DNA from: Nitrospirota bacterium
Lineage (GTDB): Bacteria > Nitrospirota > JACRHL01
DNA: 64,000 nt
Direction of reading: 5' to 3'
NCBI GenBank assembly: GCA_029858285.1
Contig: JAOUFN010000010.1
Coordinates: 1 to 64,000, forward strand
Positions 25,437-33,864 of this stretch are shown here, in pieces. The stretch's first letter is position 1, and each line of letters begins with the position of its first letter. The notes below the pieces were generated by a model. The model was not told where the DNA came from. It ran no database searches and saw nothing but the letters and a program-made list of their open reading frames with translations. Both the position numbers and the translations under genes were made by a program.

Positions 25437-26725
25437 ACTACCTCATTGCCGGATTCGGCCCCGCCGGGGCGCACGCCGCCGCCGCTATCCGCGAGTGCGA
25501 CCCCCACGGCGCCATCCATATTTTTTCCGCCGAAAGGCACCCGTTCTACTTCCGCGCTGCCCTGCCTCACTATGCACTGGGGCACATTGATCGCGACGGC
25601 CTGTGGGCGTTCCCCGCGGGAGAAACGGAGCGTCTGGGCCTCCGCCACCATCCGGTGCCCCTGGTGGCCATCGACACCGCCCGCAGCGTGGCGCGGGACG
25701 CGGGCGGCGGGGAGCACCCGTGGGACCGGTTGCTGATCGCCTGCGGCGCGGCGCCGTCGGCCATCGGCTGCCCCGGCGAAAGCGCTTCGGGCGTGGTGCA
25801 TTTCGACACCCTGGACGACGCCGAACGGGTGCGTGCCCTGTGCGGAGAGGGTGGCGGTTCACCCCCCCGCGAGGGCGGAGGCTCCCCGGACGGGCGGGCG
25901 ATCATCGCCGGCGGCGGCGCCCGCGCGCTGGCCCTGGCCTGGGTGGCCAGAAGGCTGGGCATGGACGTGCTGCTGCTGGTGCCGGAGGAGCGGCTGGCCG
26001 CCTCGCTGCTGGATGCCGCCGCCGCCATGCTGCTGTTTCGCCGCCTCACCGACGACGGTGTGGAGGTGCGCCTCGGGCAGCACATCACCGGCGTCGAACA
26101 CGCCCGGCAAGGTGGCGCTACCGCCCCCGCCTCCGGGTCCATCGTGGTTACCGGCGACGGGCGGCACCACCCCTGTCGCTGGCTGGGGGTGGGAACGGAT
26201 GGGGCCCCCGGTTCGCCCCTGGCGGTCAGCGCCGGGCTGCCGGAGGGGGCGGTGGAGGTGAATGCGCGGCTGGAGACCCGGCTGCCCGGCATCTACGCGG
26301 CGGGCGACGTCTGCTCGGTGCGGGAGGGCGGAGAGTCGTTGCGCTCCGGCGGCTGGCTGGCGGCAGTCACCCAGGGGCGGGTTGCGGGGCTCAACATGGC
26401 CGGGGGCGACGCCACCTACCAGTCCAGCCACTACTATCACGCCACCACCCTCTACGACCTGCCCGCAGTGTTGATCGGCGCCTGCGATGCCGCCGGTGAC
26501 GCCGCCGTCACCACCCACCCGCGCGGCCCCGATTACCGGCGTTTGGTGTTCCGCAAGGGGGCGCTCATCGGTGCCGTGCTGCTGGGCGACCGGCGCCACG
26601 CGGCGGTGCTGCGCCGCGCCATCGAATTGCAGGTCGACGTGCGCGGCTACGAGTTGCAGATGCTGCGCACCGACGTGGATCTGAACCGGCTGCTGCGCCC
26701 CAGCGGTGAATACCATCTATACTGA
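25433..26725 (+). CDS. FAD/NAD(P)-dependent oxidoreductase (pyridine nucleotide-disulfide type)
   Basis: A 430-residue flavoprotein starting at GTG inside the stop of the preceding Fe-S gene. The FAD fold is marked by YLIAGFGPAGAHAAAAI and the C-terminal LPGIYAAGDVCSV; a central NAD domain is suggested by AIIAGGGARALALAWVARR. No redox CxxC is visible in the first FAD domain, so it resembles rubredoxin/ferredoxin reductases or NADH oxidases rather than thiol reductases. The NAD glycine motif (GGGARA) is slightly altered. Coupling to the CCG protein suggests it feeds NAD(P)H electrons to, or takes them from, the iron-sulfur clusters. Partner and direction are inference. Confidence 0.85.
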   Translation: MNYLIAGFGPAGAHAAAAIRECDPHGAIHIFSAERHPFYFRAALPHYALGHIDRDGLWAFPAGETERLGLRHHPVPLVAIDTARSVARDAGGGEHPWDRLLIACGAAPSAIGCPGESASGVVHFDTLDDAERVRALCGEGGGSPPREGGGSPDGRAIIAGGGARALALAWVARRLGMDVLLLVPEERLAASLLDAAAAMLLFRRLTDDGVEVRLGQHITGVEHARQGGATAPASGSIVVTGDGRHHPCRWLGVGTDGAPGSPLAVSAGLPEGAVEVNARLETRLPGIYAAGDVCSVREGGESLRSGGWLAAVTQGRVAGLNMAGGDATYQSSHYYHATTLYDLPAVLIGACDAAGDAAVTTHPRGPDYRRLVFRKGALIGAVLLGDRRHAAVLRRAIELQVDVRGYELQMLRTDVDLNRLLRPSGEYHLY

Positions 26726-26813
26726 CGCGCCCTGTACTGACACGCCTTCGGGCGAATCCGCCAGTCTGGCCGTTTCGCCGCCCGGCCCGGTTGTCCCCCG
26801 TTTCGGAGACTTC

Positions 26814-28274
26814 ATGACTTCCCGAACATCCCGCCTTCGCGCCTTGTTTCCGCGTGTCTGGGGCTCTTTCGCCCCTTGCCCCGTGCGCGCGCTGGCCGCC
26901 GCCGGGCTGGCCACGGCCCTGTTGGGCGCGGCCTGCGCCACGCTGCCACCCGCGGCCCCCGGCACGGCGTCCGAAGGCGCGTCTCCTGTGGCGTCCGCCG
27001 CCGCTCCCGTTCACGCGGCACGCCACCATCCCCCCAAGGCCGATGGCGGCGGGACCGGGGTGAACGACTCTGACGCGAACGGCTCCGTCGGCTTCGCCTC
27101 GTTTGCCGCCAGTTCCCCCTACCGCGATCTGGACAACCTGCCAGCGGGCACTATCGTGCATGTGGCCAGCGGCCGCGAACTGTCCCCCGCCGAACTCATG
27201 GACAACCTGGCGGGCGCCCGCGTGGTGTACGTGGGAGAGATGCACACCAGCATCGAGGACCACCGCGTGCAGTTGGACATCATCCGCGCCCTGGACCAGC
27301 GCAGCGGCGGACGGGTGATGGTGGGCATGGAAATGTTCCAGCACACCGCCCAGCCCGGTCTGGACCGCTGGGTGGCCGGAGACATGGACGAGGCGGAGTT
27401 CCTGCGCCTGTGGTACGACAACTGGTCGGAGGATTTCGCCTACTACGCCGATATCCTGCGTTACGCGCGTGACCGCCACATTCCCCTGATCGCCCTCAAC
27501 GCCACCGGAGAGGAGGTGCGGCAGGTTTCCACCGGCAAGGCCGACGTGCCCGCGCCCAACCACACCCTGCTGGCAGAGGCCGACCCCTACCAGAAGGCCT
27601 ACATGAAGGCCATTCTGGGCGGCCACGAACATGCCGGGAGCGACGGCTTTGGCCGCGTGCAGCGGTTGTGGGAATCGACCATGGCCGAACACGCCGCCAA
27701 CGCCCTCGACAGCGAACGCGGCCAGGGCAGAACTCTGGTGGTGCTGGCGGGTTCCGGCCATGTGCAGTACGGCTTTGGCATTCCGCGCCAGCTCTACATC
27801 CGGCGTCCGTTGCCATACCGCAGCGTGGTGCCGGTGACCAACGTGCCGGAAAACCGCGACGACCTGCGCATGGAGGTGGCGGTGCCCGATTTCCCCTTCC
27901 CCGTCGCCGATTTTGTCTGGTCGGTGGACTATCGTGATCGGGAGGGGAAGCGCATGCTGCTGGGTGTGGCGCTGGAGCCGGACGGCCACGGCATGACGGT
28001 GCGTCAGGTGCTGGAAGGCACCGCCGCCGAGGGGGCCGGTGTGCTGGCCGGGGATCATCTGGTGTCCCTGGACGGCCACCCCCTGGGCTCCATGTCCGAG
28101 GTGCGCGCCGCCATGGCCCTGGTCGAGGACGGCCACCGTGGCCAACTGGTGCTGGAGCGGGGCGGCGTCCGCATGACCCTGGGGGTCACCTTCCGGCTGC
28201 CGTTGCCCGGAGCAGGTGGGGTGGAGGGAATGGGGGAGGGTTCGGGCGCTTCGGCAACCCCGGCATCTCCATGA
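26814..28274 (+). CDS. ChaN-like haem-binding lipoprotein with C-terminal PDZ domain
   Basis: A 486-residue exported protein. The ATG after TTTCGGAGACTTC is preferred over an upstream frame. A basic leader and hydrophobic stretch end in GAAC (Cys about 41), an imperfect lipobox. After a low-complexity segment comes a ChaN/Cofac_haem_bdg domain (about 105-360): ARVVYVGEMHTSIEDHRVQL, GGRVMVGMEMFQ, LVVLAGSGHVQYGFGIP. In this family (ChaN of Campylobacter, HutZ-unrelated) dimers bind haem at the surface. A PDZ domain follows (about 390-470: EGTAAEGAGVLAGDHLVSLD). It is 88 bases after the flavoprotein and may share its operon. Confidence 0.85.
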   Translation: MTSRTSRLRALFPRVWGSFAPCPVRALAAAGLATALLGAACATLPPAAPGTASEGASPVASAAAPVHAARHHPPKADGGGTGVNDSDANGSVGFASFAASSPYRDLDNLPAGTIVHVASGRELSPAELMDNLAGARVVYVGEMHTSIEDHRVQLDIIRALDQRSGGRVMVGMEMFQHTAQPGLDRWVAGDMDEAEFLRLWYDNWSEDFAYYADILRYARDRHIPLIALNATGEEVRQVSTGKADVPAPNHTLLAEADPYQKAYMKAILGGHEHAGSDGFGRVQRLWESTMAEHAANALDSERGQGRTLVVLAGSGHVQYGFGIPRQLYIRRPLPYRSVVPVTNVPENRDDLRMEVAVPDFPFPVADFVWSVDYRDREGKRMLLGVALEPDGHGMTVRQVLEGTAAEGAGVLAGDHLVSLDGHPLGSMSEVRAAMALVEDGHRGQLVLERGGVRMTLGVTFRLPLPGAGGVEGMGEGSGASATPASP

Positions 28275-28409: not shown

Positions 28410-30437
28410 ATGTTATCCGCCTATCTGCAGTACTGGGGGCTCAAGGAGCCGCCGTTCTCGCTGGCGCCCAGCCCCAGGATGTTCTACCTGAGCGATCAGC
28501 ACCGCGAGTGTCTGATGCGCCTCAAGTACGCCATCCATTCGGGCAAGGGTGGGGCGCTGCTGGTTTCCGAACACGCCGGTGACGGCAAAACCACCACACT
28601 GCAACTGTTGATGCAGCAACTGGTGGAAGAAACCAACGACCGCATCCGCATCGCGTTCCTTGATTACCCCACCATGACCCCGGCCCAGATGGTGGCCGAA
28701 ATCGCCCGCCAGCTCGGCGTTGACGGGGTCAGCGGTGACAAGGTGCGCGACATCAACCTGCTGCGCGAACACCTGCGCGCCTGCCACGGCCGGGGCATCC
28801 GCAACCTGGTGGTGGTGGACGAGGGGCAGATGATGGCGGAGCAGCCGGAACTGCTCCAGGAGTTCCGCATCCTCCTCAATTTTTGCGTGGGCGGTGAGTT
28901 TCTGCTCAGCTTCATCCTCTCCGGGCAGGCGCCGCTGGATGCCGCAGTGCGCGCCTTTCCGGAATTCTGGCAGCGCCTGCCGGTGCGCTACATGCTGCGC
29001 AACCTGGGCGCCGCCGATACCCGCAATCTGGTGCATCACCGGCTGGCCATTGCGGGCGCGGCGCGGCCCCTGTTCACCGACACCGCCCTGGAGGGTGTTT
29101 TCCGCTTTTCCCAAGGTTGCCCCCGTGTCATTTGCGCGGTGGCGGACCTGGCCCTGGTGGTGGGCCACAGCAACCGCTCCCGCTATGTGGATTTTGCCGA
29201 GGTGACGCAGGCTTGCTCCGACATGGAGCACTCCAGTTCCTCCATCCACTACTACGATTTCCTCAATGCCCCGGCGGACGCCAATGCCTGGCCCGCGCCT
29301 GCCGCTCCGGGGAGCGCGCGGCGCGGCGACACATCCGGCCGAACCATGCCCCATTGGGCGGCGGGTCCGGGTGCCGCTCCGGCCCTGCGCACCGATCCGG
29401 CCGCCTACACCATGGCGCCCACCCTGCCCCAGGTGGCCTTCAGCCTGGCCACGGATACGGAGCAGCCGGTGCGGCCACGCGGCGCGCCACGGGTGTTGCC
29501 CACCGACCCGATCCCCCCGGACTGGCGTCCGGCGGCCAGTGCCGAGGGGGCGGCCCCGCTGCCGGAGGAAATGCAGCCTGGCGCCGCCGCCAGCGCCCAA
29601 TGGCAGCCGCTGGAGTCGGCGGCGGGCGAGTCCACAGGTGTTTCGGCAAACTCTTCCGCAAATGCTCCCGCAAGTACCCCTGGAAATGCCGGTGGCGACG
29701 GCGGTGATTCCGGAGACGATTCCGGGAATCCGTCCCGCCCGGGCGCCGGGAACGGCCCCGCCGTGGCGGTCGAAATGCCGCCGCTCCCGGTGGTCGATCC
29801 CGAGGCCGTGGCGCGCCTGAACCGGGAGCCGGTCCACTGCCCCATGTGCGCCACCGCCGTGGCCCACAGCGCAGAGGCCTGCCCCAAGTGCCAGACTGTC
29901 ATCAAGGTGGCCTGTGGCCGCTGCCGTTCCCTGCAATCGGTGCTGCGCAGCCGCTGCGGCTACTGCTCGTTCCCCATCAATGCCTGGGCGCGGGAATCGG
30001 AAAAGGAGTTTTTGGCCGGACTGCGCCGTCTGGACCTGCTCCAGTCCGCCGAGTCGGCGGAGCGCGTCAAGTTTCAGATGCACCCCACCATGGAGGGGCG
30101 GGTGTTGTACTTTGCCCCCCGCGACACACTGTTCCGCCAGGGGGCGCGGGTCGGAGTGATCCAGGAGGGGCAGCCCACGGAGTTCGCCGGCTGCGCCGTG
30201 ATGATCGGCAACCGCCGGTTGGTGTTCCTGTACCCCGACCGCCGGGTGGATCTGGAACTGGAGGAACTGGACGCCTGCGACCTGGTCTCCGAAAACGGGG
30301 CCCAGGGGGGTGGGTTGGTGATCCGCGCCGGTAACCTGGCCTGGCAGGTGCATCTGCCCATCCGCGAGGGTCGCCGCACCGCCGCATACCGGCTGGTGCA
30401 GACCTTTTTGGCCCGGATGCGCACGGCGGTGCGGTGA
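28410..30437 (+). CDS. ExeA-like AAA ATPase with zinc ribbon and novel C-terminal domain
   Basis: A 675-residue protein. Residues 1 to about 270 are an ExeA/GspA-type ATPase: YWGLKEPPFSLAPSPRMFYL, Walker A SEHAGDGKTTTL, Walker B LVVVDEGQMM, and QLGVDGVSGD. ExeA proteins normally continue with a membrane segment and peptidoglycan-binding domain; none is seen. Instead there is a disordered Pro/Ala/Gly/Ser linker (about 285-470), an eight-cysteine zinc ribbon (CPMC, CPKC, CGRC, CGYC; about 475-522) and a soluble beta-rich domain (about 545-675, LYFAPRDTLFRQGARVGVI, VMIGNRRLVFLYPDRRVDLELEE) with a PH-like look. The function is unknown; regulation of an assembly or secretion machine is the nearest family role. 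Confidence 0.8.
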   Translation: MLSAYLQYWGLKEPPFSLAPSPRMFYLSDQHRECLMRLKYAIHSGKGGALLVSEHAGDGKTTTLQLLMQQLVEETNDRIRIAFLDYPTMTPAQMVAEIARQLGVDGVSGDKVRDINLLREHLRACHGRGIRNLVVVDEGQMMAEQPELLQEFRILLNFCVGGEFLLSFILSGQAPLDAAVRAFPEFWQRLPVRYMLRNLGAADTRNLVHHRLAIAGAARPLFTDTALEGVFRFSQGCPRVICAVADLALVVGHSNRSRYVDFAEVTQACSDMEHSSSSIHYYDFLNAPADANAWPAPAAPGSARRGDTSGRTMPHWAAGPGAAPALRTDPAAYTMAPTLPQVAFSLATDTEQPVRPRGAPRVLPTDPIPPDWRPAASAEGAAPLPEEMQPGAAASAQWQPLESAAGESTGVSANSSANAPASTPGNAGGDGGDSGDDSGNPSRPGAGNGPAVAVEMPPLPVVDPEAVARLNREPVHCPMCATAVAHSAEACPKCQTVIKVACGRCRSLQSVLRSRCGYCSFPINAWARESEKEFLAGLRRLDLLQSAESAERVKFQMHPTMEGRVLYFAPRDTLFRQGARVGVIQEGQPTEFAGCAVMIGNRRLVFLYPDRRVDLELEELDACDLVSENGAQGGGLVIRAGNLAWQVHLPIREGRRTAAYRLVQTFLARMRTAVR

Positions 30438-30587
30438 CAGCACGGCAAGCACAGGCGGGGAGGGGGCACAGCCTCCTGAATGTATCCGGCAGAGGCTCCA
30501 GCAGGCTTTCCGACCGATTTTTCGGCAGGCTTTTCGGTAATCCCGGCCGCACGGGTGTTCCCGTCGGCTCTGGTATGCTTGGGGCAT

Positions 30588-31295
30588 ATGGCTGGCGATT
30601 TTTCACACCGCGCCACCCGCGCCCCGCATCCCTCCGGACCGGCCGCCCCGCGCCTGCGCCGCAAGGCCTGGTGCGTAGCGGCGCTGCTGTTCCTGAGCCA
30701 GGTGTGGGCCGGAGCCGAATCACCCGCCCAATCACCCGCCACGCCCTCCGCCGGCACGGCATCTGATCCCCCGGATATGACCGCGCTGCGGCAGAACATC
30801 ATGGGAACCTCGTCAAACGGTGCGGTGCCCCGCTACGACCTGCGCCAGATCGCGCCGCCCCCCTGGGAGGTGGACGACGCCTGGCTCTCCGCCCACAGGC
30901 ACGAGGCCGTCGGCGCGGCCAACCGGGAACTCACCGGCGTGCTGGAGGAGTGGGCCGCCCGGGGCAGCGTGCTGACCCCCCTGGAGCGTCTGCGCCACCG
31001 CGATTTCGGCTTCGGCGGCAGCGGCGCGGACGGGGGTGCCCCGGCCACCGCCGCTCCGGCGACACCCGAGGCGTTCGGCATGCGCCTGCGTCTGGGAGAA
31101 ACGGTGCGGCTGCGGGTGCAGGGCGCCGGATTGACCCGCGACCTGATGTACGATCCGCTGTCGGCCTATATGTGGATGGACCTGTACCGGCTCGAATTCA
31201 GCGACGGCAACACCGGGCTGTCGCTGACCAACTCCTACCTGCTGGACGAGGACGTGGCGCGGGTGCTGTTCACCCTGCGTCACCGCTTCCGGTAA
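30588..31295 (+). CDS. hypothetical secreted protein
   Basis: A 235-residue product from the ATG after CTTGGGGCAT. A basic stretch and hydrophobic segment (LRRKAWCVAALLFLSQVWAGAES, about 21-43) look like a signal peptide. The mature part has an alpha-helical block (DDAWLSAHRHEAVGAANRELTGVLEEW) and a beta-rich C-terminal half (MRLRLGETVRLRVQGAGLTRDLMYDPLSAYMWMDLYRLEFSDG). No family recognised. It follows the ExeA-like gene by 150 bases and precedes anmK by 29, so it may act with either. Confidence 0.7.
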   Translation: MAGDFSHRATRAPHPSGPAAPRLRRKAWCVAALLFLSQVWAGAESPAQSPATPSAGTASDPPDMTALRQNIMGTSSNGAVPRYDLRQIAPPPWEVDDAWLSAHRHEAVGAANRELTGVLEEWAARGSVLTPLERLRHRDFGFGGSGADGGAPATAAPATPEAFGMRLRLGETVRLRVQGAGLTRDLMYDPLSAYMWMDLYRLEFSDGNTGLSLTNSYLLDEDVARVLFTLRHRFR

Positions 31296-31324: not shown

Positions 31325-32497
31325 ATGATTGTAAAGGACACGCTGCTGGCCATCGGACTGATGTCCGGCACCTCGGCGGACGGCATCGACGCCGCGCTGG
31401 TGACGGTGGAGCGCGCCCCGCGCCGGGTGACCCTGCGCCATTACCTGGAACTGCCCATGCCGTCGCCCCTGCGCGCGCGCATCCTGGCGGCCGCCAATGG
31501 CACCTCCGACAGCCGCGACCAGTGCCTGCTCGGCGCCGCGCTGGGCGAGGCCTTTGGCAGCGCCGCCCGCTCCCTGTGCGGCGCCGCCGGAGTGAGTGCC
31601 GAACAGGTGGACGTGGTGGGCTCCCACGGACAGACGGTGTGGCATGCTCCGGAGGCCACCCCGCCCGCCACCCTGCAAATCGGCAACCCGGCGCAGATTG
31701 CCGCCATCTGCCGGATTCCCGTGGTGGCCGATTTCCGTTCCGCCGACCTGGCCCAGGGCGGGCAGGGCGCCCCACTGACCCCGCGTCTGCATCACCTGCT
31801 GTTGGCCCACCCGCAGCGGGACCGGGCGGTGGTGAATATCGGCGGCATCGCCAACATGTCGTGGCTGCCGGGCGGGCGCGGCACCGAGTCGGTGGTGTCC
31901 TTTGATACTGGCCCCGGAAACATGGTCATCGACGCCGTTACCGCGCACCAGACGGGCGGGGTGGAGTTGTGCGACCGGGGTGGCGAGCGGGCCGCGCGCG
32001 GCAAGGTGCAGCCGATGTTGCTGGACGACCTGTTGCGGCACCCGTTTTTTACCATGGCGCCCCCCAAATCCAGCGGGCGCGAGATGTTTGGCGCCAATTA
32101 TGTGCGCGAACTGTTCGACCGGGCGGAAAAATACGGGGTGCAGGGGGACGATCTGGTGTCCACCGTCACCGCCATGACCGCCCAGACCATCGCCCGGGCA
32201 GTGGAGGGACAGAGCGCCCGCGCCGAGGTGCTGGTGTGCGGGGGCGGCGCCCGCAACGCCACCTTGATGGGAATGCTGGAGGCCGCGCTGCCGAAGGCAC
32301 GGGTCGCCTCGGTAGAAACGTGCGGAGTGGCCTCCGACAGCATGGAGGCGGTGGCGTTTGCAGAGTTGGCCTGCTGCTACCTGTGGGGCGAATCCGCCAA
32401 CATCCCCGCCGTCACCGGCGCGCGTCAGGCCGTGGTGCTGGGCTCCCTTACCCCGGCGCCGGGGCGCGCCGGGTTTCCGGGAATGGTCCTGCCATGA
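31325..32497 (+). CDS. anmK: anhydro-N-acetylmuramic acid kinase
   Basis: Phosphorylates and opens anhydro-MurNAc released from peptidoglycan, feeding it back to cell-wall or amino-sugar metabolism. The 390 residues include the ATP-site AIGLMSGTSADGIDAALV, HGQTVWHAP, VNIGGIANMSWLP, SFDTGPGNMVIDAV and VCGGGARNATLM. The ATG at 31325 is chosen as the conserved N-terminus begins a few residues later. It complements mtgA and glmS functionally but is not linked to them. Confidence 0.96.
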   Translation: MIVKDTLLAIGLMSGTSADGIDAALVTVERAPRRVTLRHYLELPMPSPLRARILAAANGTSDSRDQCLLGAALGEAFGSAARSLCGAAGVSAEQVDVVGSHGQTVWHAPEATPPATLQIGNPAQIAAICRIPVVADFRSADLAQGGQGAPLTPRLHHLLLAHPQRDRAVVNIGGIANMSWLPGGRGTESVVSFDTGPGNMVIDAVTAHQTGGVELCDRGGERAARGKVQPMLLDDLLRHPFFTMAPPKSSGREMFGANYVRELFDRAEKYGVQGDDLVSTVTAMTAQTIARAVEGQSARAEVLVCGGGARNATLMGMLEAALPKARVASVETCGVASDSMEAVAFAELACCYLWGESANIPAVTGARQAVVLGSLTPAPGRAGFPGMVLP

Positions 32498-32709: not shown

Positions 32710-33864
32710 ATGCACGCCGTTCAATACACTCTTTATTTTCTCGTCGTTCTGGCCGTACTCATCTTCGTGCACGAACTGGGGCATTTTCTGGTGGCGCGCT
32801 GGAACGGGGTGCGGGTGCTGACCTTCGCCATCGGCTTTGGCCCCACCCTGTTCTCCCGCACCTCCGGCCACACCGAATACGCCCTCAAGCTCATCCCTCT
32901 GGGCGGCTATGTGAAGATGTTCGGCGAGGACCCCCAGGAGGAAATGTCCCCCGAGGAACGCAGCGTCACTTTTTACGGCAAGAGTGTGTGGCAGCGCATG
33001 GCCGTCGTATTTGCCGGTCCGGCCTTCAACATGATCACCGCCGCGCTGATTTTCTGCGGAGTATTCCTGCACGGCGTGCCGATGATGACCGCCGACATCA
33101 GCGTGGTCACCCCCGATTCCGCCGCAGAGCAGGGCGGCCTGCTGAAGGGCGACCGCATCACCGCGATCAGCGGCCATTCGGTGCGCGGCTGGGACGACAT
33201 TCCCGACCTGGTTCGGGCCTCGGAGGGGCACGCCATCCCCGTCGTTGTGGAGCGTAACAGCGCGGTTGTGGAACTGACCGTCACCCCCCGTGCGGCGGTG
33301 GTGCAAAACCTGTTCGGCGAGGACGTCCACACCTGGCAGATGGGCATTCAGCCGACGGGGCAGATGATCCCGCACCGCGAGCCGCCCCACATTGCCCTGT
33401 GGATGGGGCTGGAACGCACCTGGGACGTGACGTCCATGCTGGTTCAGGGGCTGGTCAAGCTGGTGCAGGGAAAAATCCCCGCCAACACCATCGGCGGGCC
33501 GATCCTGATCGCCCAGATGACCGGTGAACAGGCCGATCAGGGGTTCATGAACGTGGCGGTGTTTGTGGCGTTGCTGTCGGTGAACCTGGGAATTCTCAAC
33601 CTGCTGCCGATCCCGGTGCTGGACGGTGGCCACCTGGTGTTCCTGCTGGCAGAGGGGCTGCGCGGTCGCCCGGTGAACGACCGGGTGCGCGAGGTGGCCC
33701 AGCAGGCGGGGCTGTTCCTGCTGCTAACCCTGATGGCCTTTGCGTTTTACAACGACATTGTGCGGTTGTTCCAGGGCACCACCGGGCTGGAGCCTCCGGC
33801 ACAGGAAATTCCCGCTCCGGCCCCGACCGAGGCGCCCGCAACTCCCGTCGCGCCCGCCCCCTGA
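32710..33864 (+). CDS. rseP: RIP metalloprotease RseP
   Basis: Site-2-type zinc protease in the inner membrane; family members cut anti-sigma factors and signal-peptide remnants. The 384 residues begin with a membrane helix carrying the zinc motif HELGH (IFVHELGHFLVARW), then a central PDZ domain (DSAAEQGGLLKGDRITAISGHS), and the second zinc motif in NLLPIPVLDGGHLVF. A Pro/Ala-rich tail ends the protein. Only one PDZ domain is evident by eye, where E. coli RseP has two; total length is also below the E. coli protein. Confidence 0.94.
   Translation: MHAVQYTLYFLVVLAVLIFVHELGHFLVARWNGVRVLTFAIGFGPTLFSRTSGHTEYALKLIPLGGYVKMFGEDPQEEMSPEERSVTFYGKSVWQRMAVVFAGPAFNMITAALIFCGVFLHGVPMMTADISVVTPDSAAEQGGLLKGDRITAISGHSVRGWDDIPDLVRASEGHAIPVVVERNSAVVELTVTPRAAVVQNLFGEDVHTWQMGIQPTGQMIPHREPPHIALWMGLERTWDVTSMLVQGLVKLVQGKIPANTIGGPILIAQMTGEQADQGFMNVAVFVALLSVNLGILNLLPIPVLDGGHLVFLLAEGLRGRPVNDRVREVAQQAGLFLLLTLMAFAFYNDIVRLFQGTTGLEPPAQEIPAPAPTEAPATPVAPAP

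Follow-up and report, generated by a model that had tools for sequence, protein, structure and literature searches.

An ATPase with an ExeA-type core, a double zinc ribbon and a predicted PH-like tail, encoded next to an exported protein in a small Nitrospirota family

What might an ExeA-type ATPase do when it has neither a membrane segment nor a wall-binding domain and carries a different tail? ExeA itself, a cytoplasmic ATPase with an attached periplasmic part that binds peptidoglycan, assembles the secretin together with ExeB (PMC4098917). The locus described here lies within a 64,000-nucleotide stretch of DNA (the window) from a Nitrospirota genome of 2.56 Mb. It encodes an ATPase composed of (i) an ExeA-type AAA core, (ii) a probably disordered linker, (iii) an eight-cysteine double zinc ribbon, and (iv) a beta-rich C-terminal domain; the gene downstream of it encodes an exported protein. 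A sequence-only reading had interpreted the pair as a rewired cytoplasmic ATPase that senses or assembles something with a secreted partner, and the span that it delimited (28410-31295) correctly covers both genes.

Table 1. Coordinates of the ATPase, its domains and motifs, and the neighboring genes in the window.
Feature	Position	Strand	Remarks
ChaN/Tiki-type haem-binding domain with PDZ, probable lipoprotein	26706..28274	+	Pfam PF04187 E=2e-54, and PDZ
ATPase with ExeA-type AAA core, double zinc ribbon and PH-like tail (predicted)	28410..30437	+	675 aa; ATG 28410, stop 30437
AAA core with ExeA-type N-terminus, residues 1-285	28410..29264	+	Pfam AAA_22 E=6e-17
P-loop EHAGDGKT	28569..28592	+	Glu in place of the first Walker A Gly
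Walker B DEGQ	28818..28829	+	DEAQ in most relatives
Low-complexity linker, probably disordered	29265..29837	+	~84 to 186 residues long across homologues
Double zinc ribbon, residues 477-519, eight invariant Cys	29838..29966	+	
Two-helix spacer between zinc ribbon and C-terminal domain, residues 525-557	29982..30080	+	AlphaFold model
PH-like domain, residues 562-672, strands then C-terminal helix	30093..30425	+	structure prediction; no Pfam match
Exported protein, signal peptide, no known family	30588..31295	+	235 aa; helical part, then predicted beta meander
anmK	31325..32497	+	Pfam PF03702 E=1e-111
rseP (site-2 protease)	32710..33864	+	TIGR00054

The reading frame of the ATPase is real, as full-length homologues were found in three other genomes. 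Their AAA cores share 74% (L033) to 86% (L031) identity with the window copy, and a comparison of the window genome (G000) with G003 indicated purifying selection on the core (dN 0.09, dS 0.73). The dN/dS ratio in this comparison rose from ~0.12 in the core to 0.34 in the zinc ribbon and 0.55 in the C-terminal domain; the zinc-ribbon cysteines are invariant, and the tail is under constraint. The core aligned with its relatives at the ExeA-type N-terminal motif, the Walker A lysine, Walker B, a QR pair and sensor 2. These names, including the QR pair as the presumed arginine finger, are those in general use for AAA ATPases. The proposed ExeA/GspA type of the core was borne out by the matches to AAA_22 (E=6e-17) and TIGR03015 (140 bits, below its cut-off). 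The P-loop is unusual: Walker A reads S-E-x-A-G-x-G-K-T in all four family members, with Glu at the first Gly position, whereas Gly was present there in 35 of the 35 relatives scanned (some loci counted twice). The substitution could mean an altered use of ATP.

A hydropathy scan of the four homologues detected no transmembrane segment in any of them; the best 19-residue Kyte-Doolittle mean in the ATPase (1.75) is located within the AAA core. The Pfam scan gave no match to the peptidoglycan-binding domain PF01471, which is meaningful because the same scan picked up PG_binding_1 in L076, an ExeA relative of the phylum. The two absences on which the sequence-only reading was built are thus real, and the ATPase looks cytoplasmic, as proposed. 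To call them a rewiring was an overstatement, as ExeA-type ATPases without membrane or wall-binding parts, including short ones of ~275 aa, are common in the phylum; the tail alone is therefore unusual. A PDB sequence search found no solved relatives of the ATPase. A role as a defence system was rejected, with neither the ATPase nor the exported protein being matched by PADLOC.

The neighborhoods of several other ExeA-type relatives in the phylum contain CheA/CheY-type signalling genes, an HD-domain gene or exopolysaccharide genes, which indicates that the group as a whole has no fixed link to secretins. The short ExeA-type ATPases of L071 (7177-7995), L074 (6969-7796) and L075 (6759-7679), belonging to other families, lie beside CheA/Hpt and CheY-like genes, and this suggests that part of the ExeA-type group acts in signalling. 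The ATPase of the window could accordingly be imagined as a regulatory switch that responds to its nucleotide within a signalling complex, where the tail would mediate protein contacts, and that has no direct part in building envelope machines. Besides CheA/Hpt/CheY (L071, L074), the genes next to such ATPases encode a TPR protein in L070 and a protein with an HD domain in L072, and the Glu in the P-loop would also suit a switch. In a tree of ExeA-type ATPases the stem leading to the family was long (2.4 changes per site) and the branches within it short; the family grouped with L072, L073 and L075, at a position that the tree does not resolve. However, no signalling genes were seen beside the locus in any of the four genomes and the gene for the exported protein follows that of the ATPase in all of them, and we consider a switch unlikely.

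The nearest NCBIfam model is TIGR03015 (XrtA/PEP-CTERM ATPase), matched over its full length by residues 5-273 of the ATPase, with a score of 139.8 bits against a cut-off of 324.5 bits. This best match, together with the location of the nearby tree members L072 and L073 in loci with Wzz-like genes (identified by eye), would fit an ATPase of the exopolysaccharide/PEP-CTERM type that is no longer part of an exosortase system and has come to act in polysaccharide export or in assembly at the cell surface. Such a history seems quite improbable to us, given a score far below the cut-off, a window genome with no PF09721 (exosortase) match, and a locus near which no polysaccharide genes were seen. 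A PEP-CTERM system as such was ruled out by the exosortase-free genome and the low TIGR03015 score.

The tail begins with the double zinc ribbon, whose CxxC motifs start at residues 477, 491, 502 and 516. All eight Cys are invariant in the four homologues, in agreement with the eight-cysteine ribbon described from the sequence alone. Pfam DZR scored above its cut-off in one homologue (27.7 vs 27.3 bits), and the window protein, at 18-20 bits, fell short of it. The tails of the homologues are 38-56% identical. The C-terminal domain had no Pfam match at E≤10, the tail gave only a chance-level match to PDB sequences, and it matched no known ExeA tail. In the AlphaFold model of the tail, built from a four-sequence alignment (mean pLDDT 82.5; ~80-93 in the C-terminal domain), the zinc ribbon is followed by two helices and by strands closed with a C-terminal helix. 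The domain, made up of the C-terminal ~110 residues, is beta-rich, as first noted, and ends in a helix.

When the model was compared with the PDB using Foldseek, nearly all top matches had the PH superfold (PH/GRAM/GLUE/PTB), including Lam6, SIN1, Vps36 GLUE, GRK2, TFIIH p62, SSRP1, MTMR6 and BTK. The E-values were modest (6e-4 to 1e-2, two of them ≤0.001), as expected for a remote match and a query that included the zinc ribbon; TM-scores by target length reached 0.64 for single-domain PH-type targets. The Vps36 GLUE and myotubularin domains, both recovered in this fold search, are also reported as the nearest to bacterial PHb (PMC2817789). On these predictions, the C-terminal domain most likely belongs to the PH-like domains, missed so far by sequence comparison, and does not represent a new fold, and the novelty first ascribed to it was not upheld.

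Double zinc ribbons were also observed in other proteins of the phylum. GspE/PilB-type secretion ATPases with a C-terminal double zinc ribbon are encoded in two other genomes (L049, 1-1659; L053, 1-1698), so in this phylum envelope ATPases of more than one kind have acquired a zinc ribbon. In several genomes, proteins of ~125 aa with an N-terminal double zinc ribbon (L040, 1501-1875; L044, 1402-1848; L051, 1492-1860) have in common a short C-terminal motif, such as ISQNVIDNIFEAG.

The full architecture and the downstream exported-protein gene were present in all four family genomes; public entries for relatives are MAGs that bear the names Nitrospirota, Nitrospirae or Nitrospira. When 292 other genomes of the phylum were searched with a profile covering the zinc ribbon and the C-terminal domain, no match extended over the full length and only generic zinc ribbons of unrelated proteins were detected; no relatives of the tail were found in plasmids. 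A scan of 84,980 species recovered family members only; its queries were exact peptides from the window protein, which detect close relatives, and distant ones may exist in other phyla.

The ATPase gene is directly followed by a gene for a signal-peptide protein of 190-235 aa in all four family genomes, as the sequence-only reading would predict for a partner. In the window this gene probably starts at 30588, with an in-frame ATG further upstream at 30480. The homologues are 30-44% identical to the window copy, and a profile of the protein found matches only in the same four of 296 phylum genomes. No Pfam family, GspB included, was matched above its cut-off; a very distant kinship with GspB is possible. 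The structure model was poor (pLDDT 41). The distance between the two genes is 150 (G000), 41 (G003), 5 (G002, locus L032) or 96 (G001) bases.

This adjacency is part of a longer conserved stretch, in which the order FAD oxidoreductase - ChaN-PDZ - ATPase - secreted protein - anmK is kept in 4/4 genomes, with the ChaN-PDZ fusion always directly upstream of the ATPase gene. Next to anmK, rseP is found in three of the four, and in L032 a gene on the opposite strand takes its place. None of 57 relatives outside the family matched both ChaN-PDZ and anmK (E≤1e-20), and the cluster is therefore a feature of the family lineage. Because ChaN-PDZ and anmK are equally constant neighbors, adjacency alone does not prove that the ATPase and the secreted protein work together, and it is only suggestive of a partnership. 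The cytoplasmic half of the earlier proposal stands, and its secreted partner is linked by gene order only; the sense-or-assemble role given to the pair is an inference.

It may even be that the two proteins are functionally unrelated and are neighbors through a stable gene order, which would be compatible with any of the other readings of the ATPase. The preservation of the whole stretch in all four genomes fits this view, and the 4-bp overlap of the anmK start with the end of the secreted gene in L031 and L032 suggests that the latter may belong with anmK. On the other hand, the ATPase tail and the secreted protein occur in the same four of 296 genomes, and anmK is present in 35 of the relatives outside the family without either of them. 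We are inclined to doubt that the two proteins are unrelated.

The envelope machines available to such an ATPase were located in the window genome. Its type II secretion locus (gspD, gspE, gspJ, gspN, gspL) lies on contig C40 and its type IV pilus locus (pilM, pilQ) on C38, so the ATPase gene, on C45, is outside both clusters. GspD-like secretins were found in all three relatives, in two of them above the cut-off. A full-length query matched no second ExeA-type ATPase in G000, though it missed a strong second AAA_22 match at C34:32634-32978 (294-aa frame).

The explanation that we favor, tentatively and with somewhat less than even confidence, is that the ATPase is a cytoplasmic AAA+ factor for the assembly or remodelling of an envelope structure. 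The AAA core would form an ATP-driven oligomer, and the long flexible linker would bear the zinc-ribbon/PH-like tail. The tail may dock the ATPase to a protein on the inner face of the inner membrane, a contact that would substitute for the direct peptidoglycan tether of ExeA/GspA. The adjacent periplasmic protein would provide the envelope-side function, in a role much like that of GspB beside GspA. As targets, the machines for type II secretion or type IV pili would be the likeliest, since the genome has both, contains no exosortase, and yielded this as the sole ExeA-type ATPase found.

An assembly role is supported by (i) the ExeA-type core, (ii) a tail under constraint, with invariant zinc-ribbon cysteines and a predicted PH-like domain, (iii) the architecture and (iv) the exported neighbor, both constant in four of four genomes, (v) the secretion and pilus loci, and (vi) the precedent of ExeA. 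Against it are the location of the gene outside those loci, the non-GspB partner, the equal constancy of ChaN-PDZ and anmK, the relatives beside signalling, HD-domain or exopolysaccharide genes and the P-loop Glu. A more specific version, a lineage-specific envelope-assembly ATPase in which the ExeA/GspA anchor and peptidoglycan-binding tail were swapped for a cytoplasmic zinc-ribbon/PH-like docking tail and a new, non-GspB exported partner was acquired, is in our judgement unlikely to hold in full. If true, it would mean that ExeA-type ATPases can be retargeted by a tail swap, here with a PH-like domain and a zinc ribbon on an AAA motor, and it would give a handle on two uncharacterised proteins of a little-studied bacterial family.

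Compared with ExeA/GspA, the ATPase shares an N-terminal AAA domain of the ExeA type, including P-loop and Walker B, and its gene likewise has as its pair a gene whose product is exported or faces the periplasm. It differs in that no transmembrane segment follows the AAA domain, the periplasmic peptidase-like or PF01471 domain is absent, and a zinc ribbon and PH-like tail are present; moreover, the adjacent partner is not GspB-like by Pfam and the gene is not in a type II secretion cluster. The domain make-up of GspA and GspB varies widely, and some GspAs are without the periplasmic part (PMC9239104). By its core the ATPase resembles the ExeA type, but its membrane and wall-binding features place it outside ExeA/GspA. 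The XrtA/PEP-CTERM ATPase has the same AAA domain, to which the protein described here adds a C-terminal part of 390 residues. The short ExeA-type ATPases of the phylum (~275 aa; e.g., L070, L071, L074) are 31-38% identical in the core and also have no tail membrane anchor, but they have no tail, a normal P-loop Gly and other neighbors. Bacterial PH-like domains (PHb, PF08000 and relatives; PMC2817789) have the same fold of strands plus C-terminal helix as that predicted for the tail, which differs from them in having no Pfam sequence match and in occurring on an AAA ATPase behind a zinc ribbon. What is new here is the arrangement of known parts, confined to one small family among the sampled genomes.
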